From Anaerococcus vaginalis ATCC 51170 (GTDB taxonomy: Bacteria > Bacillota > Clostridia > Tissierellales > Peptoniphilaceae), in assembly GCF_000163295.1 (NCBI RefSeq), contig NZ_GG700527.1:1462500-1526499 (forward strand): 64,000 bases of DNA. The letters are read 5' to 3'. Each line of letters starts with the position of its first letter. The stretch's first letter is position 1. The translations under genes and the position numbers were made by a program. The notes below the pieces were generated by a model. The model did no database searches, was not told where the DNA came from, and saw only the letters and a list, made by a program, of their open reading frames with translations. This document shows, piece by piece, positions 31,177 through 43,479 of the stretch.

Positions 31177-32331
31177 TTAAAAATCTATTTTTTTGCCGTA
31201 ATATGCAGCTTCGTAGATTTTCTTAATATCTTCTGGAGAAGTTTCTCTTGGGTTTGTAAGTGTACATGCGTCTTTGAATGCATTTTCACTCATTTTATCC
31301 AAAACTTCTAAGAATTTATCTTCTTCTATTACAGTATTTTTACCGTCTTTAATGTTTGCAGTAAGTCCTACTGATTCATTTAATTTTCTAATTTCTTCTG
31401 CAATATCATCAATTCCTAGAATTTTTTCTAGCTCATCATATCTATCTGTTGATTTTCTATTGTAATCAATGATGTATGGAAGCATAATTGCATTTGCTTC
31501 TCCGTGTGTTAAGTGGAAAATTCCTCCGATTTTGTGAGCCATTGAGTGAACTATTCCAAGTGAAGCATTTGAAAATGCCATTCCTGCAAGTGTTGATGCA
31601 TCGTGCATTTTTTCTCTTGCATCTATATCTTCGCCATTGTCATAAGCTTTTTTAAGATTTCCAAAAACAAGCTCGATTGCTCTAATTGCAAGTGGAGATG
31701 TGTAATCATCTGCTGCTGTTGAAACGAAAGCCTCAACTGCGTGAGTCATAACATCCATACCTGTTTGAGCTGTAATTAATGGTGGCATTTTGCTTGCAAT
31801 AACTGGATCACAAATTGCTACATCTGGAACGAAATCTGGATGTACCAATGGATATTTAATTTCTTTTTCTGTATCAGTAATTACAGAAAATGCTGTTATT
31901 TCTGAAGCAGTTCCTGATGTTGATGGAATACAAGCCATTTTTGCCTTTGTTCTAAGTGGTGGATTGTCAAAAGCTGCCAATTTTTCAAAACTATAACCAG
32001 GATGTTCATAGAAAATCCACATAGCCTTTGCAGCATCCATTGCAGAACCTCCACCAATTGGAATTATCCAATCAGGACCAAATTCTTCCATTTTCTTGCC
32101 ACCTTCAAGACAAGTTTTTACAGAAGGATCAGGTTCAACACCATCAAGAATCATAACTTCCATACCAGCTTCTTCCAAATATTTTTTAGCTTGATCCAAA
32201 AAGCCAAATTTTTTCATAGAATGTCCACCAGTAACAAGAACAGCTTTCTTGCCCTCTAAATTTTTTAAATATTCAAGACTGTCCACACCGTGAACAATAG
32301 TTCTAGGAACTTGAAATGTTGTAATAGCCAT
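31177..32331 (-). CDS. Iron-containing alcohol dehydrogenase (group III)
   Basis: The 384-residue protein has the dinucleotide loop GGGSAMDAAKAM near residue 97, STSGTASEITAFSVI, and the iron-binding set in the second half: DVMTHAVEAF, HSMAHKIGGIFHLTHGEANA, and the preceding Asp. It matches butanol/1,3-propanediol dehydrogenase-type enzymes that reduce aldehydes with NADH during fermentation. AAGGAG lies 6-7 bases before the ATG. It has one of the strongest promoters in the window and a Rex-like palindrome upstream, fitting control by the NADH/NAD ratio. The preferred aldehyde is unknown. Confidence 0.92.
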   Translation of the reverse strand: MAITTFQVPRTIVHGVDSLEYLKNLEGKKAVLVTGGHSMKKFGFLDQAKKYLEEAGMEVMILDGVEPDPSVKTCLEGGKKMEEFGPDWIIPIGGGSAMDAAKAMWIFYEHPGYSFEKLAAFDNPPLRTKAKMACIPSTSGTASEITAFSVITDTEKEIKYPLVHPDFVPDVAICDPVIASKMPPLITAQTGMDVMTHAVEAFVSTAADDYTSPLAIRAIELVFGNLKKAYDNGEDIDAREKMHDASTLAGMAFSNASLGIVHSMAHKIGGIFHLTHGEANAIMLPYIIDYNRKSTDRYDELEKILGIDDIAEEIRKLNESVGLTANIKDGKNTVIEEDKFLEVLDKMSENAFKDACTLTNPRETSPEDIKKIYEAAYYGKKIDF

Positions 32332-32688: not shown

Positions 32689-32731
32689 AAAAAAAATACC
32701 CTCCTTACTGGTTTGTCCAGTAAAGAGGGTA
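32689..32731 (-). terminator. Terminator of the lrgA-to-fixX operon
   Basis: TACCCTCTTTACTGG and CCAGTAAGGAGGGTA form a 15-bp stem with a GU-type mismatch, followed by eight T on the minus strand. It lies about 100 bases past the fixX stop. Confidence 0.92.
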
Positions 32732-32831
32732 CATATCAGATTTTTTACAATGCTGTTTTTTATTTCTAGTCTTATATCGAATTTTATGATTAGTGGATTA
32801 ATTATTCTAATTTTTTCTTATTTTCTTATGT

Positions 32832-33116
32832 TTAGCCTTGTCTAAAAGTTACTCCTACTTCTCCTTGTGGATGTTTCCAATCTTTTACAATTTTTCCATG
32901 TGATAGGATTCTACATGTTCCACATTCTAAGCATCCAAGGTGACTGAAACCAAAAACTCCATCTACATAGGTGTAGCAACCTGCTGGACATGCCATTAAA
33001 AGTTTATTTATTTCTTCTTCATCTTTGTAGTCTGTATCTACATCGATGTGTGAATTATGCTCATCTGTATGGTATATATCAAGACCTAATTTATCTTCTA
33101 TGCTCATTCTTTTCAT
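32832..33116 (-). CDS. fixX: FixX-like ferredoxin
   Basis: The 94-residue protein has CPAGCYTY near residue 43 and CLECGTCR near residue 61, the 4Fe-4S cysteine pattern of FixX ferredoxins, and ends in a YG.GV-like segment (GEVGVTFRQG). FixX partners FixC in carrying electrons from an electron-transfer flavoprotein to quinone. The ATG follows the fixC stop directly and GGAGG lies 8 bases before it, so the two are coupled. It is the last gene of the eleven-gene operon. Confidence 0.93.
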   Translation of the reverse strand: MKRMSIEDKLGLDIYHTDEHNSHIDVDTDYKDEEEINKLLMACPAGCYTYVDGVFGFSHLGCLECGTCRILSHGKIVKDWKHPQGEVGVTFRQG

Positions 33117-34409
33117 TTATAGTGCCTCCATTACTGCGGAAATAAAGTTTGATAATTGTGTTGCGCTCATTCTACTTGCAAGGTCGTTTACTGTTCCCAT
33201 TATAAATCCTTTGGAATCTTCGCCATTTACTTTGAAAGCTCTTTCTGCTACATCGTTAATAATTTCTGGGAAGTCTTTAAAAATTTCTCTTCTGCTTAAT
33301 ATTGTTGGGAATGCCTTGAAAGTATTTAAATCTTTCATTATGAAGCTGTCTTCTAAAAGTTTTTTATAAATTGATAAGCTTTCTTTACTGTAATCTTCTT
33401 TTTCTTTGCTAGCTATTATTGATAGTGCTGCAAGTCTACCACTTTCAATTGCAAAATCCATTCCTCTTACTGTATAACCTAGGTTTACGCAAAAACCTGC
33501 TGCATCTCCTACTACAAGGAAACCATCTCCATATAATTCTGGAATCATATGAATGCCTTCTTCTGGAACAAGGTGTGCTGAATATTCTATTGTTTTTCCA
33601 CCTTTTATAAATGGTGCTACATTATCGTGTTCTTTGAATCTTTCTAACAAATCGTTTATTTTTGTATTTGCATAACCTATATCTGATAATGTTGCAACTA
33701 CTCCGATAGATATGGAATCTTTATTTGTATAAATAAAGCCTCCTCCAAATCCTCCTATGGTTGGATCGCCACATGAAAGCCAGCTCATACCTTCATCGCT
33801 TTCTAGATTAAATCTTTCATTGATTATTTCTTCTGATAATTCAATAACTTCTTTAGCTCCAACTGCTACTTGATGAGGTTCTAGTTCTTTTTTTATTCCT
33901 AATTGTTGAGAAAGTAATGAGTTTACTCCATCAGCTATTATTACTACATCAGCAAATACTTCTTCTCCTGTAGCATCAATACCTACTACTTTTCCATCTT
34001 CTACAAGTAATTTTTCTACTAAAACTCCACTTATTATTGAAACTCCTGCTTCTTCTGCTTTATCTGCTAGGTATTGGTCAAACTTACTATGTAATACTAC
34101 ATAGGATGAATCTTTATCTTTGCCAAGAGCTTTTGATGAAAATCCTATATCAAAAGATGATTTTTCACTCATCATTGATATTTTTTCTTTTACTACTTTT
34201 CTTTCTATCGGAGCTTCTTCGGCAAAATTTGGTATTATTTTTTCTAAACTATGACCATATAACCTGCCTCCTGTCACATTTTTTGCTCCACAATAGTCTC
34301 CTCTTTCAACCAACATAACTTCTAAATCATTTTCTGCTAAAACTATAGCTGCAGATAATCCTGCAACACCGCCTCCTACAATTATAACATCAAATTTATC
34401 TTCACTCAT
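33117..34409 (-). CDS. fixC: FixC-like flavoprotein:quinone oxidoreductase
   Basis: The protein of about 430 residues has VIIVGGGVAGLSAA at the start (FAD), GAKNVTGGRLYG, and GDAAGFCVNLGYTVRGMDFAIESG near residue 310, all characteristic of FixC/ETF-quinone oxidoreductases. It should accept electrons and pass them to a membrane quinone together with FixX. Normally it works with the flavoprotein FixAB, which is not encoded here. The same flavoprotein superfamily includes geranylgeranyl reductases that saturate isoprenoid tails, a possible alternative next to quinone-tail genes. The start at 34409 (MSEDKFDVIIVGGG) has GGGGGA upstream; an in-frame extension of 17 residues overlaps the previous gene. 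Confidence 0.9.
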   Translation of the reverse strand: MSEDKFDVIIVGGGVAGLSAAIVLAENDLEVMLVERGDYCGAKNVTGGRLYGHSLEKIIPNFAEEAPIERKVVKEKISMMSEKSSFDIGFSSKALGKDKDSSYVVLHSKFDQYLADKAEEAGVSIISGVLVEKLLVEDGKVVGIDATGEEVFADVVIIADGVNSLLSQQLGIKKELEPHQVAVGAKEVIELSEEIINERFNLESDEGMSWLSCGDPTIGGFGGGFIYTNKDSISIGVVATLSDIGYANTKINDLLERFKEHDNVAPFIKGGKTIEYSAHLVPEEGIHMIPELYGDGFLVVGDAAGFCVNLGYTVRGMDFAIESGRLAALSIIASKEKEDYSKESLSIYKKLLEDSFIMKDLNTFKAFPTILSRREIFKDFPEIINDVAERAFKVNGEDSKGFIMGTVNDLASRMSATQLSNFISAVMEAL

Positions 34410-34429
34410 TGTTTCCCCCGTGTGTTGAA

Positions 34430-35113
34430 TTATAATTTTTGCCCTTTGATCATTACGCAAGCTCCAAAGAGCATTTTTTTTACTTCAATATTCTCAACTC
34501 CAAATCTTTCACAGATTTTTATTATTTCATTTGGACTGATAAAATTCTTCGTTGATTCATATAGCCACATATAATCTTTATATCTTTTAATACCTCCACC
34601 AAGGACTGGCATTAGATATTTAAAAAATAATTTATAAAATGGTTTTATAATTTTATTTTCTACTGGAAAGGAATCTAATATATATATTCCTTTCTTTCCT
34701 ACTCTAACCATTTCGTTTATTACTTTTTCATAATCATCTGTATTTCTTAAACCAAAAGATATCGTTACATAATCAAATGTTGAATTTTCGTATGGAATAT
34801 TTTTTGCATCTGCCTTTAATAAAGTTATGTTATTTATTTTTTTTGATTTTTCTTTTGATATCCTAAGCATATTTTCTGAAAAATCTACACCAACAACTTT
34901 TGCATCACTTTTTTCAGCTATTTCTATTGCTATATCTCCTGTTCCACAGCAAACATCCAATACTTTTTCATCATTTTTGATATTTTTTAAAATATCCTTT
35001 ACTAATGTTTCTTTCCAACTTTTTTGTAATCCTAGGCTTATCCTATCATTAGCCTTGTCATAATATGGCGAAATTTTTTGAAATATTTCATAAACTTTTT
35101 TGCTTTTCTCCAT
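34430..35113 (-). CDS. menG: UbiE/MenG-type quinone methyltransferase
   Basis: The 227-residue SAM-dependent methyltransferase has the UbiE signatures: F..I.P.YD..N..IS.G....W near the N-terminus, VLDVCCGTGDIAIEIA (SAM motif I), VGVDFSENML, and YVTISFGLRNTDD. UbiE/MenG proteins methylate the quinone ring as the last step of menaquinone synthesis. The adjoining MenA-type gene agrees with that. One base separates it from the prenyltransferase gene. No genes for head-group synthesis are in the window. Confidence 0.92.
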   Translation of the reverse strand: MEKSKKVYEIFQKISPYYDKANDRISLGLQKSWKETLVKDILKNIKNDEKVLDVCCGTGDIAIEIAEKSDAKVVGVDFSENMLRISKEKSKKINNITLLKADAKNIPYENSTFDYVTISFGLRNTDDYEKVINEMVRVGKKGIYILDSFPVENKIIKPFYKLFFKYLMPVLGGGIKRYKDYMWLYESTKNFISPNEIIKICERFGVENIEVKKMLFGACVMIKGQKL

Positions 35114-35114
35114 A

Positions 35115-36035
35115 TTATTCTCCTATTAAACTTATGGCTATTATTACTAAATAACTGAAATTTAATAAAATATTTGTAAGCCCTATATCCATCATTTGCC
35201 TAACTCTATCTTGAGGAAGTAGGCTTGCTGTAAAAATTCTAAATATAAATTTTCTTTTTAAAAAGAATATGATTAAATCTATGATTAAAGCTTTATACCC
35301 TCCAAAATAAAGGACTAGATAGGATTGTGATATAAACCACACTATAATTAATATTTTATATAAAATTCTAATATTTTTCCTACCCATAACAACAGCAAGT
35401 GTATTTCTATTTGCTTTTTTATCTTTCTCTATATCACTTGAATTGTTGCTCATCATAATTAATGAAATCCCTATTATAAAAGGCATTGCATATCCCATAA
35501 TTGTAAAATCAATTTTTTCTGAAATCACGCTAAATACACCGATAGGTATTAATCCTCCCATTACTATTCCACTAAATACTTCTCCTACTGGAAGATATGA
35601 AATAGGGAAAGGTCCCATTGAATAATTTAAAACCGTTATTACTCCGATTATCCCTATGATGATACTTTTATAATTTATACTTTCTAAAGTTAAAAGTCCA
35701 AACACAATTCCAATCGTTAGAAAAAATAGCCCTAAATTTCTAACGTTTTCTGGTCTAATACAATTATAGAACATAATATTATCAGATTCTTTTAAGTTAT
35801 CTTCCTTACTATCTACTCCATTTATGAAATCACTATAATCGTTTATAGTATTTACGGATGATTGTAGGAAAACACACGATAAAACCAAACCCAAAGACCT
35901 TAATAAACTTATGGAATATCCTGATTTTATCAGCATCAAAATCCCAAAAATCGAAGGAATAATAGATGCTACAAATGATTTTGGATTTGCAAAATTAATT
36001 ATGTTTTTTAATGTCATCTTTTGATAAGTTTTCAT
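35115..36035 (-). CDS. menA: MenA-type UbiA-family prenyltransferase
   Basis: The 306-residue integral membrane enzyme has about nine helices and the two Asp-rich, magnesium-binding motifs of UbiA proteins: NDYSDFINGVD near residue 65 and SSDIEKDKKANRNTLA near residue 198. The NDxxDxxxGxD form and the ASIIPSIFG segment resemble 1,4-dihydroxy-2-naphthoate prenyltransferase (MenA) more than ubiquinone UbiA. It would attach a polyprenyl chain to a quinone head group. Its start overlaps the stop of the polyprenyl diphosphate synthase by one base. The aromatic acceptor is inferred. Confidence 0.87.
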   Translation of the reverse strand: MKTYQKMTLKNIINFANPKSFVASIIPSIFGILMLIKSGYSISLLRSLGLVLSCVFLQSSVNTINDYSDFINGVDSKEDNLKESDNIMFYNCIRPENVRNLGLFFLTIGIVFGLLTLESINYKSIIIGIIGVITVLNYSMGPFPISYLPVGEVFSGIVMGGLIPIGVFSVISEKIDFTIMGYAMPFIIGISLIMMSNNSSDIEKDKKANRNTLAVVMGRKNIRILYKILIIVWFISQSYLVLYFGGYKALIIDLIIFFLKRKFIFRIFTASLLPQDRVRQMMDIGLTNILLNFSYLVIIAISLIGE

Positions 36036-37036
36036 TAGTTCTTCTCTATCTTATCTAAAATCTTATATAAGTAATCAGATTCTCTAATTGGAAGACTTGC
36101 TAGTATCAACCTATTTTTATCGGCAAACTCCTTGATTTTTTTTGAACTTAAAATACAAGCTTTTGATTCTATGAGTAATTGCCTTAATGTAAGTAATTCG
36201 TCATAATTAAGACTTACTTCTTTGTTTTTATTGAGCAGCTTATATATTTCATCTCCATACTTGTCATCATTCATGCTGGATAATAAAGGATATGTGTATA
36301 CTCCTTCTTTTACATCAACAAACTCTCCTTTTCCTGTTTCATCTTTACTTGAGAATAAATCTAAAATGTCATCTTTCAATTGAAACATCAAGCCTAAGTT
36401 TTTTCCAAATTCAACCATTTTATTAATATCAATTTGATTGAATCCAGCATTTTTCGCTCCAAAATAACAAACTGTTTTAAAAAATGAAGCAGTTTTTCCG
36501 CAAATATTTTCAAAATATTCTTTTTCACTAATATCTAGTCTGTATTTTATTAGATTTTGACCAACTTCACCATTGCACATATCTCTAATAGTGTCAGATA
36601 TTATAGAAATTTCTTCGACAAGTCCTTTTTTTGCCAAGTAACTAAATACTTTAGATATCATATAGTCGCCTGCAAATACGGCTACATCTTTGCCATATTT
36701 TGATTGGATTGACCTATGTGATCTTCTAATTAGCGAATCGTCTATTATATCATCATGAATAAGTGATGCAAGATGAGTTATTTCTACTGCAGCGCATTGA
36801 CTAATTATTTTATCTGAAATTTGGTTTTCTCCCATCAGGCTTATATAAATCAAAAGCTTTGTTCTAATCATCTTTCCGCTAGAAATCAAAGTATTCTCAA
36901 TAATATTATAGAGCTTTTGGCTTTGCTTGTAATCTCCTAAGATTTCTCTCATTTCTACAAGTGTTTTATCAATTAAATAATCTATAATAGTTTGCTTTGA
37001 TTCTTTTGCTAAACATTCACTTATTGCAAAATTCAT
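36035..37036 (-). CDS. Polyprenyl diphosphate synthase (long-chain)
   Basis: The 333-residue trans-isoprenyl synthase has the first Asp-rich motif in LIHDDIIDDSLIRR near residue 93 and the second in QLKDDILDLFSSKDETGKG near residue 220. GKMIRTKLL and CNGEVGQNL fit the long-chain group (hepta- to decaprenyl). It supplies the side chain for the MenA-type enzyme encoded next. It overlaps that gene by one base and follows the LutB-LutA fusion gene by two bases. The product chain length cannot be read reliably. Confidence 0.93.
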   Translation of the reverse strand: MNFAISECLAKESKQTIIDYLIDKTLVEMREILGDYKQSQKLYNIIENTLISSGKMIRTKLLIYISLMGENQISDKIISQCAAVEITHLASLIHDDIIDDSLIRRSHRSIQSKYGKDVAVFAGDYMISKVFSYLAKKGLVEEISIISDTIRDMCNGEVGQNLIKYRLDISEKEYFENICGKTASFFKTVCYFGAKNAGFNQIDINKMVEFGKNLGLMFQLKDDILDLFSSKDETGKGEFVDVKEGVYTYPLLSSMNDDKYGDEIYKLLNKNKEVSLNYDELLTLRQLLIESKACILSSKKIKEFADKNRLILASLPIRESDYLYKILDKIEKN

Positions 37037-37038
37037 TT

Positions 37039-39198
37039 TTAGATTAATCCTCTCTTTTCAGATATTATTTCTGAAGTGTGTTTTACCTTAATATCAAGAC
37101 CTTCTGCTTCAAGTCCTCCTCTAATTTGCATCATACAACCTGGACAATCCACAGCAACCACATCTGCTCCAGAATTTTTGATATTTTCTATTTTGTTTTT
37201 TAATATTTTTGATGAAATATCTGGATATAAAACATTATAAGATCCTGCAAATCCACAGCAGTTATCGCTATCTTCCATCTCAACAAATTCTACGCCTTCT
37301 GTATTTTTAAGTAAATCTCTAGGTTCTTCATAAACTCCCAAAGTTCTCTTTAAATGGCATGAATCATGGTAAGTAACTTTTACTTCTTTTCCATCTACTG
37401 CATTTACTTTGTCATCTTTTTCATGGAATAATTTACAAAAATCTACGCATTTTTCTCCCAAAACTTTTGCTCTTTCATACATTTCACTTCCTTGTTCAAA
37501 GAAATCTTTGTAAGATTGAAGTTGATGAGTACATGATGGGCAAGCAAGAAGAATATAATCGTATTTCTCTGCATCCATGGCTTTTATATTTATTTCCGCT
37601 TCTTTTCTAGCATTTTCAACATCACCCATATTGCTTGCAGGACAACCACAACAAGCTTGACCTAGAGGAAACTCTACTTTGTATCCTATTGAGTTCATAT
37701 TTTTAATCAAAGATTTAGCTGTATCAACATATACAAAATCAAGTAAACAACCAGCAAATAAAGCCACTGTTCCTTTTTGATTTTCTACATTTTGTTCAAT
37801 TTCATCAAAAATATCTCTAAGTGGAACTTTTGCTATTGATGGTAGAACTTTTCCTCCAGTCATTCCTGATACGAAATCTGGAAGATGTCTAATCATTGTG
37901 TCGCCCTTAGTAAATGGCTCTTGAGCAATAGATGCAATTCTTAATAATGAATGGAAAAGTTTCCTATCTGTTACTGCATCTAATGCAAATTTCTTTATTG
38001 GATCTGGATTTTCCTTAACGTGTTCTTCTCTAACTTTCATTATCATTTCAGCTATCGGAAGTCCACCACCACAAACTTCATTACATCTACCACATTGTAG
38101 ACATACACTTTCTATTTCATTTGCTCTATCTTTATCAATTAAGAAGTGAGTTAAAAGTGTTCCTATTCCTCCAGTATAAACATTGGAACCATATACGTGT
38201 CCTCCTACTAAAGCAAAGGCTGGACATACATCAAGACAAGCTCCGCATCTAATACAGTTAAATATTTCTCTATAACCCTCTTGAGCCAATATTTCTCTTC
38301 TGCCTGGATCATCTATAATCAAACAATAGAATCCTTTTTCTTCTTTTGTATCACTTTCTTTGTCAGTAGTTACTTCACAAGCACCTGTATACAATGATAA
38401 GTAAGCTGTAATTCTTTGTGCAGTACCATTACGAGGGAGAGCTTTAAAAATCCATCTAGCATCAGAAATTGAATTTACAAATTTTTCTATTCCAAATATA
38501 TACAAATGATTTTTTGGAAGGGTTCCTACCATTCTACCATTACCTTCATTTGTCATTGTAAATACTGTTCCAGTTTCAGCAACTGCAACATTTGCTCCTG
38601 AAACTCCTAAATCTGCATTTTTAAACTTATCTCTCATAACTCTTCTTGAAGTTTTTACTTCTTCAGATATTATAGGTTCGTGTTTAGTTTTAGTGTATTC
38701 TGAAAAATAGTCTGCAACTTGTTCCTTATTTAAATGCAAGGCTGGCATAACCATATGTACTGGGCTATTTCCTTCAAGTGAAATAATAAATTCTCCCAAA
38801 TCAGTTTCTTGGCAATCTACACCATTATCTTTTAGTATCTTATTAAAATGAATTTCTTCAGAACACATTGATTTAGATTTTACGGCTGTTTTTATGTCTT
38901 TTTCTTTTAAAAAGTTTTCAACCCATTTTGCAGCTTCTTCTTTGTTTTTTACTACAACAACGTGTCCGCCTCTTGCCTCGCAATTCTTTTTGAATTCACT
39001 TATCATTTCATCAACGTGCTCAGCAGCAAATGTTTTTACTCTTTTTATAGCTTGTTGAGTTTCTTTAAAATCAATTCCTTGATAAGAATTTAGTCTTCTT
39101 TTTGGATAAGTCTTACAAAAATTTCCGAGGGTTCTACCTAAAGTTGCATTGTCTAACGCATCTTTTATCTCTTCTTTTAAACTAATATTATCAACCAT
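37039..39198 (-). CDS. LutB-LutA fusion: LUD, 2x[4Fe-4S] and CCG-domain lactate-oxidising subunit
   Basis: The 719-residue protein combines two subunits that are separate in Bacillus LutABC. Residues about 1-300 form the LutB LUD domain (LGVSGANVAVAETGTVFT). Two ferredoxin motifs follow, CIRCGACLDVCP and CLQCGRCNEVC (about 317-385). From about 470 to the end lies the LutA-type double CCG domain (GQACCGCPASNMGD with CPSC; DNCCGFAGSYNV with CPGC). The same fused form occurs in the lactate locus of Desulfovibrio. It should oxidise L-lactate or a related 2-hydroxyacid together with LutC and hand electrons to a carrier. Quinone-tail genes begin two bases downstream, which supports a quinone acceptor. 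Confidence 0.9.
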   Translation of the reverse strand: MVDNISLKEEIKDALDNATLGRTLGNFCKTYPKRRLNSYQGIDFKETQQAIKRVKTFAAEHVDEMISEFKKNCEARGGHVVVVKNKEEAAKWVENFLKEKDIKTAVKSKSMCSEEIHFNKILKDNGVDCQETDLGEFIISLEGNSPVHMVMPALHLNKEQVADYFSEYTKTKHEPIISEEVKTSRRVMRDKFKNADLGVSGANVAVAETGTVFTMTNEGNGRMVGTLPKNHLYIFGIEKFVNSISDARWIFKALPRNGTAQRITAYLSLYTGACEVTTDKESDTKEEKGFYCLIIDDPGRREILAQEGYREIFNCIRCGACLDVCPAFALVGGHVYGSNVYTGGIGTLLTHFLIDKDRANEIESVCLQCGRCNEVCGGGLPIAEMIMKVREEHVKENPDPIKKFALDAVTDRKLFHSLLRIASIAQEPFTKGDTMIRHLPDFVSGMTGGKVLPSIAKVPLRDIFDEIEQNVENQKGTVALFAGCLLDFVYVDTAKSLIKNMNSIGYKVEFPLGQACCGCPASNMGDVENARKEAEINIKAMDAEKYDYILLACPSCTHQLQSYKDFFEQGSEMYERAKVLGEKCVDFCKLFHEKDDKVNAVDGKEVKVTYHDSCHLKRTLGVYEEPRDLLKNTEGVEFVEMEDSDNCCGFAGSYNVLYPDISSKILKNKIENIKNSGADVVAVDCPGCMMQIRGGLEAEGLDIKVKHTSEIISEKRGLI

Positions 39199-39224
39199 AT
39201 TAATCTCCTCTTATAATCTTAAAC

Positions 39225-39776
39225 CTATAGATCTGTAACTATCACTATACTCATTTGCAAAGGACCATGAACACCAACCGTACTTACGCACTCTATATCT
39301 GCTGTCCTTGAAGGGCCTGTTATAAAACCTACATATTTTGGGAAAGGTTTTAATTCGGATAGTTTGTCAAACATATCATCATAACTTTCCACAATTGTTG
39401 AGCCTTTAACTATTCCTATATAATAATCTGGCATAATAGCCATAAGCCTAGCATCTACTTCATCACTTGCTTGTACAACAGAACCAAGCTCAGCCACTCC
39501 ATAAGCAACTTCTGTTATTCCGCCTTTAGCTGTTTCGCTGTTTAGTCTAATATGATCAGTATAAACTGTAATATCATTTTTTCTAAAAGCTTCAACTACT
39601 CCTGCTTCTTTTGCAAGCTCTGTTTCCAACATACAAGTTGATTCTATTCCATTGTCTTTATAAATATTTACAAGTGTCTCTGCTAAATCATTCTTACTTG
39701 TTTTATAACAAGTACCATTAACACTTTCTAAATTTTTTGCAAAAGTGTCAAATAATTCTATTTTATTTTCTATCAT
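39225..39776 (-). CDS. lutC: LutC-like LUD-domain subunit
   Basis: The 183-residue protein is a stand-alone LUD domain. GITEVAYGVAELGSVVQ near residue 88 and the end GFITGPSRTADIECVSTVGVHGP are the conserved LutC/YkgG signatures. It is a subunit of the lactate-utilisation complex with the fused iron-sulfur protein encoded 26 bases downstream. Its own catalytic contribution is not settled in the family. Confidence 0.92.
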   Translation of the reverse strand: MIENKIELFDTFAKNLESVNGTCYKTSKNDLAETLVNIYKDNGIESTCMLETELAKEAGVVEAFRKNDITVYTDHIRLNSETAKGGITEVAYGVAELGSVVQASDEVDARLMAIMPDYYIGIVKGSTIVESYDDMFDKLSELKPFPKYVGFITGPSRTADIECVSTVGVHGPLQMSIVIVTDL

Positions 39777-39808
39777 TTACGACCTCTCATTTTTTATTTT
39801 TACATATT

Positions 39809-40972
39809 CTAGTCATAATCCATTACAACTCTAAGCTTGGTATCTTGCAAAGAAAATGAGCTTATTTTCCTTGAAGATATATTATCTGCCAACTTAAATC
39901 TTCTTTTATAATTTAAGTAAGAAACTTCTAAATCATTTCCTATTTTTCTAACTTCTACCTCCTCTTCTTTAGCATATTTCAAATCTATTACAATAATCTT
40001 ACTAGCTTTTTCTTCTATGATATAAAACGCTTTATCATTAACGAAAATATCTTCTAGTTTAAGATTTTTAAATATCTTATCATGCAACTTGTTTAAGGCT
40101 TTTAACCCGATAACTTCATAATCTTGTAAGTGAATCTTAAAAACTTTTTTTTCTTTAAAAAATTCTTCTATTTTTATAATATTTGTTTTATCTTCATCTA
40201 ATAGATTTCCATAAGAAGATTGTTGAATTTCTTCTGGATATATCATATTAATAAACACGCAATCCGATAAAAATCCATACATATTTATAAGGCTATAAGA
40301 TCTAAAAGTTTCATTTGCTATAACTTTATTTGCCTTGCTTATAAATCTGATTGTTGTTATATTTGGATTTTGTAATATACGTTCAAGTTCGTATAATTTT
40401 TTTGATAAACTTATAAACTCATCAAATACAATATCTTTTGGTTTTTTAACGTCTGTTCTTTTTTCAATAAAGCTTCCAAAAATACTATTAAACTTCTTAA
40501 CTAATGGTACTAATGAATCCGACAAATTATTAAACTTTTCTCCAGTCGATAGCAGGGATATTGTTTCACCACTAGGCCCACAATCAACAATTAAAACATC
40601 AAACTTTCCTTCTTTATAAATTTCTAAAATTTTAAGTAGAGAAAATACATCATCAAATCCAGGAAGAAGTGACAACTCATCTAGCTGTATTTCTGTTGTT
40701 ACACTTTCTTTTACAAGCTCTCTCATATAAGAGCTTATATTTCCCCACGCTTTTTTACTTTCTTTGATGGGATTAATCTCAAGTCCGTAAAGATTATTTG
40801 CTATCTGCTTGGGACTATCATTTAATTTTTCTTCAAACAAATCACTTAAACTATGAGCAAGATCACTACTTATAACTAAAGTTTTATATCTTTTGGAAAT
40901 ATTTATAGCTGTTAGCGCTGAAATTGTAGTTTTTCCAACTCCACCCTTGCCAGTATTTATAATAATTCTCAT
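39809..40972 (-). CDS. ArsA/Get3-type ATPase, second of a tandem pair
   Basis: The 387-residue protein has the deviant P-loop NTGKGGVGKTT at residues 6-16, switch I LSSDLAHSLSDLF near residue 36, and DCGPSGETISLL near residue 118 where arsenite ATPases have DTAPTGHT. A C-terminal domain of about 90 residues ends SRKISSFSLQDTKLRVVMDYD. It lacks the three arsenite-binding cysteines of ArsA and the CxxC of Get3, and has no membrane segment. No arsB, arsC or arsR gene is nearby, so arsenic resistance is unlikely. It overlaps the first ATPase gene by four bases, pointing to a heterodimer. The function is unknown. Confidence 0.8.
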   Translation of the reverse strand: MRIIINTGKGGVGKTTISALTAINISKRYKTLVISSDLAHSLSDLFEEKLNDSPKQIANNLYGLEINPIKESKKAWGNISSYMRELVKESVTTEIQLDELSLLPGFDDVFSLLKILEIYKEGKFDVLIVDCGPSGETISLLSTGEKFNNLSDSLVPLVKKFNSIFGSFIEKRTDVKKPKDIVFDEFISLSKKLYELERILQNPNITTIRFISKANKVIANETFRSYSLINMYGFLSDCVFINMIYPEEIQQSSYGNLLDEDKTNIIKIEEFFKEKKVFKIHLQDYEVIGLKALNKLHDKIFKNLKLEDIFVNDKAFYIIEEKASKIIVIDLKYAKEEEVEVRKIGNDLEVSYLNYKRRFKLADNISSRKISSFSLQDTKLRVVMDYD

Positions 40973-42144
40973 ATCTTATCCTGTTTTACTTTTAAATATA
41001 TATAAAGCTCATCGTTATTGCGGACACATTTGTGAATATAAGAATCAAACAAAATATTGGGCAAGCTAATAATTCTTTTCATATCATCCACTCTAATATT
41101 TATATCTGTCCCTTTTTTATAGACATCATAATCATGAATTTTTGAAATATTTATCCTCAATATATATCCATCATTGATTTTTTCATAACTATAATTTTCA
41201 CAAATAGGTTTTATATCTAAAATTGAACCTTTAAAAGATAATTCCTCTGCAAATTTTTCTATATCCTCTAGGTTTATTAAATCTTTTTTCATCAATTTTA
41301 TTTTATATACTGGCATATTATAAAAACAATCTTCAATCTCTTTTAAGTGCTTTGACTGTATTTCTATTCTCTTTCTTACAAAATCACTCTTATCGTCATC
41401 AAAAAGTCTATTAACAAAAAATCCATCTACATTATAATCAAAAAGATTTAGGTAAGATAAATCTCTTTTACTTTCTTCTAAAACCATCTTCTCAGCCAAT
41501 CCAACCAATCTAACCGTTGAAATCCTACTATCTTTTAAAATTTCCTCTAATTTTATAAGCCTTTTATAAATAATTTCAATTTCATCCAAAGATTGATTAT
41601 CTGGCAAGTTGATTTTATATTTGTATTTAGATACAGGCCTTAAAGTTCTAATTATTCCCTTACCTATTCCAAAAAATTTCTCCAAATACCACGAAAGCAT
41701 TTCTGGTATTTTTAGATAAGCAAATGTAGATGCTGATGCTGGACAGTCCACTATTATATTTTCAAAATCAAACTGTTCGTATATATCCAATATTTTAAGC
41801 AATGACAATATATTAGCAATAAATGGCATATCAACACTTGAATTATAAGATACTTTTGAAAAATCTATTTTTCTAAACCTATCTGCAAGACCAGCCTTTA
41901 TATCAGGAAATCTTTCCTCTAAAATTTTTGAGCTATCAATTTCAACAACAGACAAATTCTCACAGACTTTAGTAATCTCTCTGCCTATTTTTATTCCAAA
42001 AACATCTGATAAACTATGAGCTTGGTCTATACTGATTAAAATTGTATTTATATTTTTTTTTGCAGAAATAATAGCAGTAGCGCTTGATATAGTAGACTTG
42101 CCAACACCGCCTTTTCCTGTGTACATAAAAATTTTTTTATTCAT
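40969..42144 (-). CDS. ArsA/Get3-type ATPase, first of a tandem pair, degenerate signature
   Basis: The 391-residue protein has YTGKGGVGKST at residues 7-17 and ISIDQAHSLSDVFG near residue 38. The nucleotide-contact motif reads DCPASASTFAYL, further from the family DTAPTGHT than in its neighbour. The C-terminal half has a basic segment (FGIGKGIIRTLRP) and a small all-beta-looking tail. It lacks arsenite-ligand cysteines and a CxxC. Tandem ArsA paralogues may replace the two halves of classical ArsA. It follows lrgB by 23 bases. The client is unknown; chaperoning or energising the membrane or Fe-S partners of this operon is speculation. Confidence 0.8.
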   Translation of the reverse strand: MNKKIFMYTGKGGVGKSTISSATAIISAKKNINTILISIDQAHSLSDVFGIKIGREITKVCENLSVVEIDSSKILEERFPDIKAGLADRFRKIDFSKVSYNSSVDMPFIANILSLLKILDIYEQFDFENIIVDCPASASTFAYLKIPEMLSWYLEKFFGIGKGIIRTLRPVSKYKYKINLPDNQSLDEIEIIYKRLIKLEEILKDSRISTVRLVGLAEKMVLEESKRDLSYLNLFDYNVDGFFVNRLFDDDKSDFVRKRIEIQSKHLKEIEDCFYNMPVYKIKLMKKDLINLEDIEKFAEELSFKGSILDIKPICENYSYEKINDGYILRINISKIHDYDVYKKGTDINIRVDDMKRIISLPNILFDSYIHKCVRNNDELYIYLKVKQDKI

Positions 42145-42167
42145 TTAATTTCAAAATTCAAAAAAAT

Positions 42168-42911
42168 CTAACTTATAAAAAGCATTACAAAAAGTGGCAT
42201 CAAAATAACTGTACAAATACCAGCTATAGCAATAGATAATCCACTCATAGCTCCTTCAACTTCTCCCATTTCTATAGCTTTTGATGTTCCCATTGCGTGG
42301 CTTGCCGTACCGATACCAATACCAATAGCTACAGAATCTTTTACTCTCATGATTTTCATAACTGTAGGTGCAAATATAGCTCCAACAGTTCCTCTAAGTA
42401 TAACTGTTATTGCAGTAATTGCTGCATAAGTCTTAATGGTCACTTCATCCGCCCCAAATTTACCGATATATTCCTCAGTCAACGATTTTGCAATAGGAGT
42501 AGTTACTGATTGAGGCATCATTGACAAAGTCAAATTCTTATCAAATTTAAAAATATTTGATAGGAAATAAGCAGACAAAATAGCAACAATAGACCCTACT
42601 ATTACCCCTATTAAAATAGGAACAAGATTTGCCTTTAATCTATCTATATTTCTATACAAACTTACAACTAAAGCGACAGTAATTGGTGCTATCATAAATG
42701 ATATGTACTTTCCACCCTTATTAAAATTATCATAACTAATACCAGTAATTTTCAAAAAAGCTATACAAAATATTATAGCAAGCAATAACGGATTAAAAAA
42801 CGCTATTTTAGTTTTTTTACTAACCATCATTCCTATTCTAAACATAACTATGCTCAAAACAATTCCAAAAAAATCATTATCAGCTATATAAGTATTCAAA
42901 AATTCGCTCAT
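42168..42911 (-). CDS. lrgB: LrgB/PftB-type membrane carrier subunit
   Basis: The 247-residue protein has about seven to eight helices and the family segments PLLLAIIFCIAFL, MIAPITVALVVSLY and SMMPQSVTTPIAKSL, and ends GTASHAMGTSKAIEMGEVEGAMSGLS, the most conserved LrgB region. LrgAB was named as a holin-antiholin pair, but the Bacillus PftAB and streptococcal LrgAB proteins transport pyruvate. Sitting first in an operon for lactate oxidation, this pair most likely carries pyruvate, lactate or a related acid. The transport role is inferred. Confidence 0.88.
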   Translation of the reverse strand: MSEFLNTYIADNDFFGIVLSIVMFRIGMMVSKKTKIAFFNPLLLAIIFCIAFLKITGISYDNFNKGGKYISFMIAPITVALVVSLYRNIDRLKANLVPILIGVIVGSIVAILSAYFLSNIFKFDKNLTLSMMPQSVTTPIAKSLTEEYIGKFGADEVTIKTYAAITAITVILRGTVGAIFAPTVMKIMRVKDSVAIGIGIGTASHAMGTSKAIEMGEVEGAMSGLSIAIAGICTVILMPLFVMLFIS

Positions 42912-42912
42912 A

Positions 42913-43260
42913 TTACTTCCTCACTTTTTGTACTATTTCTACAATTTTAGCAGTTATTGCCATAGTTATTAAGCAAGATATAGTCATAACCACAAGTATT
43001 TGTATTGCATTATCTTTAATTACATCAAATTGCACCATAAGACCAACACCAAGAGGAGTAAAAGTAAAAGCTAGAATAGAAGTTAGAAAATCTGATGTTT
43101 CTCCAACATCCTCAACCTTTACAATCTTAAATAGCAAAGCAACAAACAAAAAAATCATACCAAAAACTGGTTCAGGTATTGGTAGCCCAGTTAATTTCTT
43201 AGCTACAAAGCCTAGTAGCAAGAAAAAAATCAAATAACAAAATTCTTTAACATATTTCAT
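42913..43260 (-). CDS. lrgA: LrgA/PftA-type small membrane subunit
   Basis: The 115-residue protein has four membrane helices with GLPIPEPVFGMIFLFVALL and FTPLGVGLMVQFDVIKDN, both typical of LrgA/CidA. It pairs with LrgB, encoded one base downstream. A GGAG site lies about 6 bases before the ATG. It is the first gene after the operon promoter, with an untranslated leader of roughly 185 bases. Confidence 0.88.
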   Translation of the reverse strand: MKYVKEFCYLIFFLLLGFVAKKLTGLPIPEPVFGMIFLFVALLFKIVKVEDVGETSDFLTSILAFTFTPLGVGLMVQFDVIKDNAIQILVVMTISCLITMAITAKIVEIVQKVRK

Positions 43261-43450: not shown

Positions 43451-43479
43451 ATTATAGGATCCATATAATTTCACCGCAA
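43451..43479 (-). promoter_or_regulatory. Promoter of the eleven-gene lrgA-to-fixX operon
   Basis: TTGCGG (43474-43479) and a perfect TATAAT (43451-43456) are 17 bases apart. A weaker alternative, TTGCGA with TATTTT, lies about 40 bases downstream. The spacer includes GGATCC within a near-palindrome (ATTATAGGATCCATATAAT). The leader has a possible hairpin (AAACAA/TTGTTT) but nothing I recognise as a riboswitch. Confidence 0.65.

Follow-up and report, generated by a model that had tools for sequence, protein, structure and literature searches.

Why should genes for lactate oxidation, for late steps of quinone synthesis and for a FixCX pair lie in a single run with two ATPases of the Get3/ArsA fold, and which way would electrons move through their products? 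The question is raised by a locus of Anaerococcus vaginalis ATCC 51170, in a stretch of 64,000 nucleotides that was analysed as a whole (hereafter the window; positions 1462500-1526499 of its contig, in a 1.89-Mb genome). The original prediction described eleven co-directional genes at 32832-43260 of the window, and all eleven open reading frames (ORFs) were recovered there on the minus strand, with the families as named confirmed by Pfam, NCBIfam and PDB sequence searches. Our best reading overall, to which we assign a probability of roughly 0.58, is that electrons pass from lactate to menaquinone, then through FixCX to EtfAB and on to crotonyl-CoA or NAD, with the Get3-type pair serving this system. 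LrgAB would import lactate or pyruvate, and a dehydrogenase of the LldG/LldH type would oxidise L-lactate and reduce menaquinone. The latter would be finished from a scavenged ring, most likely 1,4-dihydroxy-2-naphthoate (DHNA), with the polyprenyl synthase supplying the tail, MenA joining tail and ring, and MenG methylating the product. FixCX would re-oxidise menaquinol and deliver the electrons to the single EtfAB and from there to butyryl-CoA dehydrogenase (Bcd); as an alternative end, confurcation with electrons of reduced ferredoxin would bring them from EtfAB to NAD. As a heterodimer, the two ATPases would serve the assembly or the membrane loading of the system. The substrate, the direction of flow, the identity of the precursor, the heterodimer and the role of the ATPases are the parts of this reading that we infer.

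Read 5' to 3', the operon runs lrgA, lrgB, ATPase 1, ATPase 2, a lutC-like gene, ldhH, polyprenyl synthase, menA, menG, fixC and fixX, and its features in window coordinates are as follows.

42913-43260, minus strand: LrgA-type membrane protein, 115 amino acids (aa); LrgA-type models at E 1e-14 to 1e-17, under curated cut-offs.
42168-42911, minus strand: LrgB-type membrane protein, 247 aa; PF04172 at 226 bits, above cut-off.
40969-42144, minus strand: ATPase 1 (Ars1), single-domain Get3/ArsA fold with a C-terminal alpha-crystallin domain, 391 aa; PF02374, PF17886 and TIGR00345 above cut-off, with an AlphaFold model and Foldseek search.
39809-40972, minus strand: ATPase 2 (Ars2), paralogue of Ars1, 387 aa; Pfam and NCBIfam models and tree.
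39225-39776, minus strand: LutC/LldG-type small subunit of L-lactate dehydrogenase with LUD domain, 183 aa; PF02589.
37039-39198, minus strand: LdhH/LldH (LutB-LutA fusion) with LUD, a 4Fe-4S dicluster and two CCG domains, 719 aa; NF045670 at 991 bits (cut-off 800).
36035-37036, minus strand: polyprenyl diphosphate synthase, long-chain type by its best models, 333 aa; PF00348 above cut-off, long-chain NCBIfam models under cut-offs.
35115-36035, minus strand: MenA-type DHNA prenyltransferase (UbiA family), 306 aa; PF01040 above cut-off, best NCBIfam models DHNA polyprenyltransferases, under cut-offs.
34430-35113, minus strand: MenG/UbiE methyltransferase, 227 aa; TIGR01934 at 227 bits (cut-off 158).
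33117-34409, minus strand: FixC, flavoprotein of the electron transfer flavoprotein (ETF):quinone oxidoreductase type, 430 aa; NF007450 at 470 bits (cut-off 466), Thermotoga maritima FixC (7koe_C) at 272 bits.
32832-33116, minus strand: FixX, ferredoxin-like subunit, 94 aa; 7koe_D at E 1.4e-14, FixX model NF011993 under cut-off, no Pfam match.
32696-32732, minus strand: intrinsic terminator 3' of fixX, 16 pairs and a T run.

The genes are tightly packed, with 1 intergenic base between lrgA and lrgB, 23 between lrgB and ATPase 1, 32 between ATPase 2 and lutC, 26 between lutC and ldhH and 2 between ldhH and the synthase gene, followed in the 3' half by 1 base between menA and menG, 20 between menG and fixC and 0 between fixC and fixX. 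Three overlaps had been claimed and two were counted, of 4 bases within the ATPase pair and of 1 base between the synthase gene and menA; a third, at fixC, arises only if the upstream TTG at 34460 is the start, in place of the ATG at 34409, preceded by a GGGGG stretch, that we adopted. Co-transcription of the eleven genes is likely from this spacing. The strong terminator expected downstream was found, in a scan that gave 2 hits in total vs 3.1 in shuffles, i.e. not above chance, the second hit being weak and inside fixC. The promoter scan was uninformative (68 promoter-like sites vs 67.4 expected from shuffles), and the promoter candidate put forward at 43451-43479 was not among the strongest 60 of these 68 sites. 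Directly past the terminator, at 31177-32331 of the window, lies an alcohol dehydrogenase-like gene, by eye of the iron-containing type.

The proposal that one module unites hydroxyacid oxidation, partial quinone synthesis and FixCX was borne out by a survey of genomes, which showed it to be conserved, its core order returning in many further genomes; that these genes might never be found together elsewhere, a possibility raised with the proposal, is clearly not the case. The scan of named genomes was seeded by a MenA alignment and kept the best 80 of 158 relatives, so that some variants may have escaped it, and LdhH loci that have no quinone genes fall outside its sample. Among these 80, tblastn placed LdhH alongside MenA in 38 loci, from Anaerococcus, [Eubacterium] yurii, Frisingicoccus and other Lachnospiraceae, Megasphaera, Pseudoramibacter, and records of Oscillospiraceae and Clostridiaceae. 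The full seven-gene core LutC-LdhH-PPS-MenA-MenG-FixC-FixX (PPS, the polyprenyl synthase) is present in 29 of the 38; seven of the nine incomplete loci are cut by contig ends, and in the other two, L032 (likewise truncated, at fixX) and L056, no synthase is present. In 26 of the 29 complete cores the synthase stands third, and in three (L034, L044 and L055) it lies about 2 kb after fixX, so that some rearrangement within the module is tolerated. The core genes share one direction in 36/36 loci measured (the partial LdhH of L042 and L069 was dropped), and 184 of the 197 gaps span 100 bases or fewer. A count defined by ORFs gave 33 module loci vs 38 by tblastn; longer antisense ORFs probably masked some genes, and several of the largest neighbour families in the ORF-based count resemble such antisense ORFs. 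No LdhH was found in the sequence around the remaining 42 of the best 80 loci, many of which are from Coriobacteriia with MenA alone. Slackia, Adlercreutzia and other Eggerthellaceae often have MenA relatives with no accompanying LdhH (L046-L098, Coriobacteriia among them). Class-level searches of 391 genomes recovered LdhH (E <= 1e-80) in the window genome only and the MenA profile (E <= 1e-20) in 54, and in this sample the module is rare and MenA without LdhH is common.

Closer to the window, LdhH, MenA and the ATPase pair, the last traced by ATPase 1 at high similarity, were found in the identical six genomes of a 130-genome family sample, all from one genus that contributes at least 29 genomes to it; the search with ATPase 1 returned nine more family genomes with weak matches only, to open frames of 580 to 672 residues. 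Five of the six carriers hold all eleven genes in identical order. The sixth is a metagenome-assembled genome (MAG; L017/L045) in which lutC-ldhH-PPS-menA-menG-fixC-fixX-lrgA-lrgB is followed by bcd-etfB-etfA-crotonase-3-hydroxybutyryl-CoA dehydrogenase (the latter genes by eye, EtfA and EtfB also by PF01012), and the ATPase pair lies near the start of a separate contig, a layout that may reflect divergent placement of the kind seen in E. yurii. Around L014 and L016 the flanking genes differ from those of the window, and therefore the module occupies different chromosomal sites; its scattered distribution is consistent with the term 'transferable' that had been applied to it. Evolutionary distances of LdhH correlate with those of the quinone genes at 0.35 to 0.42 (no non-module control gene), which leaves room for exchange of parts, and distance correlations between module proteins, given this lack of a control, indicate co-inheritance at most.

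At the entry point, oxidation of a hydroxyacid stood as proposed, and the assignment to LutABC was refined, the lut genes corresponding to the two-subunit LldG/LldH form. LdhH passes the model of the quinone-type L-lactate dehydrogenase (991 bits vs the cut-off of 800), its iron-sulfur pattern was matched in 34/36 sequences, and a separate small LUD subunit, the 183-aa protein with PF02589, adjoins it. The same two-subunit LUD/Fe-S/CCG architecture is seen in LldG-LldH of Desulfovibrio vulgaris (DVU3032-33), where a deletion mutant grows slower on L-lactate, according to the part of the source that deals with it (PMC4481167). That pair, as the same part describes it, belongs to a sulfate reducer, whose luo operon also contains pta and ack and, unlike the window operon, no quinone or Fix genes (PMC4481167). 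Lactate is a well-supported predicted substrate of the operon dehydrogenase; its L-stereochemistry would follow from homology, and quinone would be the predicted acceptor for an enzyme of the LldG/LldH type. Concerning uptake, 7 of the 33 ORF-defined module loci carry a transporter family that is a lactate permease by the one member tested (PF02652 and TIGR00795 above cut-off). LrgAB holds the carrier position in Anaerococcus, and among surveyed loci it adjoins the core only in five of the Anaerococcus lineage. A role of LrgAB in pyruvate/lactate transport is cited in a passage of PMC12630350, and LrgA and LrgB are likely a pyruvate/lactate carrier.

Does the operon make its own quinone? Twenty carrier genomes were searched, six of the genus and fourteen reached via loci of the MenA scan, several of them MAGs, next to a control set of 14 genomes for menD, mqnA and cytochrome bd. 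MenD was above the family cut-off in 0/20 carriers (control 7/14), weaker hits in 15/20 being what may be related thiamine-diphosphate enzymes, and MqnA was above cut-off in 0/20, with one weak match (control 4/14). Complete de novo menaquinone synthesis was rejected on these counts. Because no MenD or MqnA was above cut-off in carriers, the quinone ring is probably acquired from outside: the original claim of quinone synthesis in the operon holds for partial synthesis, with the ring precursor probably external and scavenged. Among the late enzymes, the NDxxD pattern of MenA was matched in 38/39 sequences and two DDxxD motifs of the polyprenyl synthase in 37/37. DHNA is the substrate of MenA and is the likely precursor. 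For some gut bacteria, DHNA or menaquinone serves as a growth factor, according to the relevant part of PMC5738691, and such precursor-dependent bacteria (Prevotella menA/ubiE are named there) would resemble the carriers in drawing the ring from neighbours and encoding late steps only, or none. In the portion of that source concerned, the dependence is linked to anaerobic respiratory reductases, whereas here the late steps share one operon with a lactate dehydrogenase and FixCX (PMC5738691).

The outlet is where we depart most from the original prediction, which had FixCX feeding the quinone. Cytochrome bd gave no match in 20/20 carriers (E <= 0.001; matched in 10/14 controls), and quinol use by this oxidase was rejected. 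Since, in addition, the window genome encodes a single EtfAB together with Bcd, it is more likely that FixCX drains quinol into EtfAB, so that the direction first proposed is probably reversed. FixC matches the T. maritima EtfABCX subunit at 272 bits vs 105 bits for ETF-QO (the ETF:quinone oxidoreductase), and the adjacent FixC and FixX both match T. maritima EtfABCX. All seven printed rows of FixX show one cysteine in 'ACPA' and three in 'GCLECGTC'; a stricter pattern, matched in 19/32, demanded an extra cysteine that two of these seven rows lack. Compared with T. maritima EtfABCX (7KOE)/FixABCX, FixC and FixX are homologous and menaquinone is the partner, whereas EtfAB is not co-encoded here. 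The gene order at EtfAB is Bcd-EtfB-EtfA-CoA transferase-3-hydroxyacyl-CoA dehydrogenase, the CoA transferase having butyryl-CoA:acetate CoA-transferase as its best match (641 bits, cut-off 675), and this cluster is divergent from a GlcD-type dehydrogenase and a second LrgAB (contig about 220.0-228.8 kb; L107:3984-12771). In four loci (L035, L045, L048 and L091), Bcd, with or without Etf, stands beside the module itself. Each step from lactate over menaquinone to crotonyl-CoA would be downhill, given potentials of -190 mV for lactate and -10 mV for crotonyl-CoA, as quoted in PMC12630350, and of -74 mV for menaquinone, as quoted in PMC10734219. Direct transfer to Bcd and confurcation to NAD are both possible.

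The EtfAB locus resembles, in Anaerococcus, the lactate/butyrate cluster of Fusobacterium. In the F. nucleatum lct cluster (Ldh-EtfAB-Bcd-LrgAB), ETF passes electrons from D-lactate to crotonyl-CoA, as stated in the part of PMC12630350 on this cluster; it has no counterpart in the window operon, and the look-alike lies elsewhere in the window genome. There, a flavin D-lactate dehydrogenase meets a canonical ETF directly, by the same passages (PMC12630350), whereas the window genome combines an iron-sulfur dehydrogenase of the L-lactate type with quinone and FixCX in between and an EtfB with the bifurcating-type glycine.

Several observations weigh against the flow from lactate to EtfAB, or against the case for it. 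EtfAB lies outside the operon, about 1.27 Mb away on the same contig, and one carrier MAG (L064) gave no ETF match. MenA and MenG are present in the operon, with MenA under the NCBIfam DHNA-prenyltransferase cut-offs. Several carrier genomes are MAGs, where absences may reflect incompleteness, and 4 of the 21 loci with at least 4 kb of flank on both sides, all Megasphaera, do not have the ATPase pair beside the core. Candidate outlets that may compete with EtfAB for quinol are long FAD_binding_2 flavoproteins in 7 of 10 genomes searched, and, in the window genome, a protein some 1,485 residues long in which FMN_bind occurs several times (L128:5739-10196; contig about 1640.7-1645.2 kb). The latter adjoins a 228-residue membrane-type protein without family hits, and the locus is a candidate flavinylated extracytosolic electron-transfer system, i.e. 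another possible outlet. Finally, the window EtfB motif AIDGDTAQVG aligns with 4kpu, one G being counted as Gly123, the bifurcating-type glycine; the motif also occurs in G009, G029 and L048, and the motif search gave no match in the distant EtfB of L035. Because EtfB keeps this glycine, EtfAB-FixCX could run forward, from NADH to ferredoxin and quinone, and would then need another quinol sink.

This forward direction underlies the best-surviving rival, which we regard as doubtful: EtfABCX would bifurcate electrons of NADH to ferredoxin and menaquinone, lactate would reduce menaquinone as well, and the electrons of the quinol would leave through a flavinylated extracytosolic system, a fumarate reductase or some other reductase. 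The glycine and the multi-FMN_bind protein speak for it, and so does the likeness of FixC, which is closest to a T. maritima complex that bifurcates NADH to ferredoxin and menaquinone, as described in the corresponding part of PMC10734219. Moorella has been proposed to couple lactate to EtfABCX and menaquinone likewise, and that proposal, in the section concerned, uses a NAD-dependent lactate dehydrogenase, unlike the window operon (PMC12051018); Lactiplantibacillus plantarum, with no quinones of its own, uses exogenous ones for extracellular electron transfer, as the relevant portion of PMC10746273 reports. The sink is where this rival loses ground. Seven of 20 carriers show a single FMN_bind match of about RnfG size, so that a flavinylated extracellular system does not generally accompany the module, and no long FAD_binding_2 match was present in 3 of the 10 genomes searched, namely the window genome, A. 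obesiensis and A. tetradius. No recurring neighbour family was recognised as such a sink (by eye, with one run against models), although some Megasphaera loci have FAD-dependent oxidoreductases nearby. Upstream of the module in Megasphaera L026, L028, L036, L041 and L051, recurring FAD-dependent oxidoreductase-like genes and a cysteine-rich small protein were seen by eye, and electron input from glycerol-3-phosphate or another donor nearby is possible.

The ATPases had been called ArsA-type; the Get3/ArsA fold stood, and both proteins are Get3-like rather than arsenite-pump ArsA. TIGR00345 (Get3) scores 197 and 188 bits against a cut-off of 135, both proteins carry the alpha-crystallin tail PF17886 above cut-off, and the AlphaFold model of Ars1 (mean confidence, pLDDT, 79) has the Get3 fold, with 3zq6 as top Foldseek hit and 8egk and 8elf (Get3d) among the hits. 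An ArsA arsenite pump was rejected, as the proteins are single-domain, TIGR04291 reaches 62 and 79 bits vs a cut-off of 650, and the genome has a separate ArsA-type locus. At L108:2321-4869 of the same genome, ArsR-like and ArsD-like proteins (by eye) are followed by a 590-aa ArsA-type protein. The P-loop GKGGVGK is intact in 24/24 Ars1 and, allowing V or T, in 23/23 Ars2, and CxxC, which we take to be the zinc-binding site of Get3, was found in 0/24 Ars1 and 0/23 Ars2. Ars1 and Ars2 form two paralogous clades, each single and fully supported in a tree that warns of long branches; their genes overlap by 4 bases in 16 of 22 pairs, and the distances of the two proteins show a correlation of 0.94 between themselves and of 0.82 to 0.84 with MenA (no control gene). 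These features fit a heterodimer that would be inherited with the module. The pair stands beside the core in 17 of the 21 well-flanked loci, upstream, downstream or divergent, and it is this retained company despite rearranged position that argues for a functional link.

No obvious tail-anchored client of the pair was seen in the operon by crude hydropathy, FixC having one hydrophobic segment, and such a client within the operon is unlikely on that basis; clients may lie elsewhere. Get3d, which shares the Get3 fold and the C-terminal alpha-crystallin domain, comes through purification together with molecules the size of phospholipids and contains a hydrophobic chamber, as set out in part of PMC10248533, and by analogy a lipid or quinone carrier is conceivable for the window pair as a conjecture. 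The same part ties Get3d to photosynthesis and describes its active site as incomplete (PMC10248533), whereas the window pair keeps the GKGGVGK loop and falls into two paralogous clades. A bolder form of our preferred reading is offered tentatively: the module would be a portable, community-dependent wire from lactate to butyrate, in which anaerobes that lack cytochrome bd would make menaquinone from a neighbour's DHNA for the sole purpose of a lipid shuttle linking their iron-sulfur lactate dehydrogenase to EtfAB/Bcd, and in which the quinone, or the enzymes that use it, would be loaded onto the membrane by a heterodimer of bacterial Get3 proteins dedicated to this task.

An antioxidant function was weighed as well, in which electrons from lactate and FixCX would maintain a small reserve of quinol, for redox balance or protection against oxygen rather than for the catabolism of lactate. 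The F. nucleatum lactate/Etf/Bcd/LrgAB cluster is under an oxidative-stress regulator in the passages of PMC12630350 on its control, and a title cited in PMC10248533 reports Get3 to act as a chaperone during oxidative stress. The missing CxxC of both ATPases and the complete lactate entry of the module, to which some genomes add lactate permease, Bcd and Etf nearby, make this explanation unlikely. A chance run of unrelated short operons is highly improbable: the uninformative promoter scan and the restriction of LrgAB beside the core to the Anaerococcus lineage would suit it, but a core order that recurs across several families, with the ATPase pair in company in three arrangements, already contradicts it.

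The circuit from lactate over menaquinone and FixCX to EtfAB, which we prefer, is made of known enzymes in a conserved arrangement for which we found no description, and the Get3 pair is its strange part. In literature searches of open-licence papers the parts were found described, and the assembled module was not; a term search of a survey published in 2022 on the lactate genes of gut bacteria (PMC8914356) gave no words beginning quinone or lutB. If the bolder form given above is true, the carriers would use quinone with no respiratory chain, and a Get3 of bacteria would be devoted to a single pathway. The link of a Get3-type pair to a definite set of bacterial genes makes the role of bacterial Get3 proteins testable. 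The preferred circuit also predicts that a range of host-associated anaerobes need a quinone precursor from other microbes in order to use lactate, such carriers being Anaerococcus, several Megasphaera, and Frisingicoccus and other Lachnospiraceae. Some Anaerococcus and M. hutchinsoni live in the vagina. Were this prediction true, vitamin K cross-feeding would be tied to lactate removal and butyrate output in the communities of these anaerobes.

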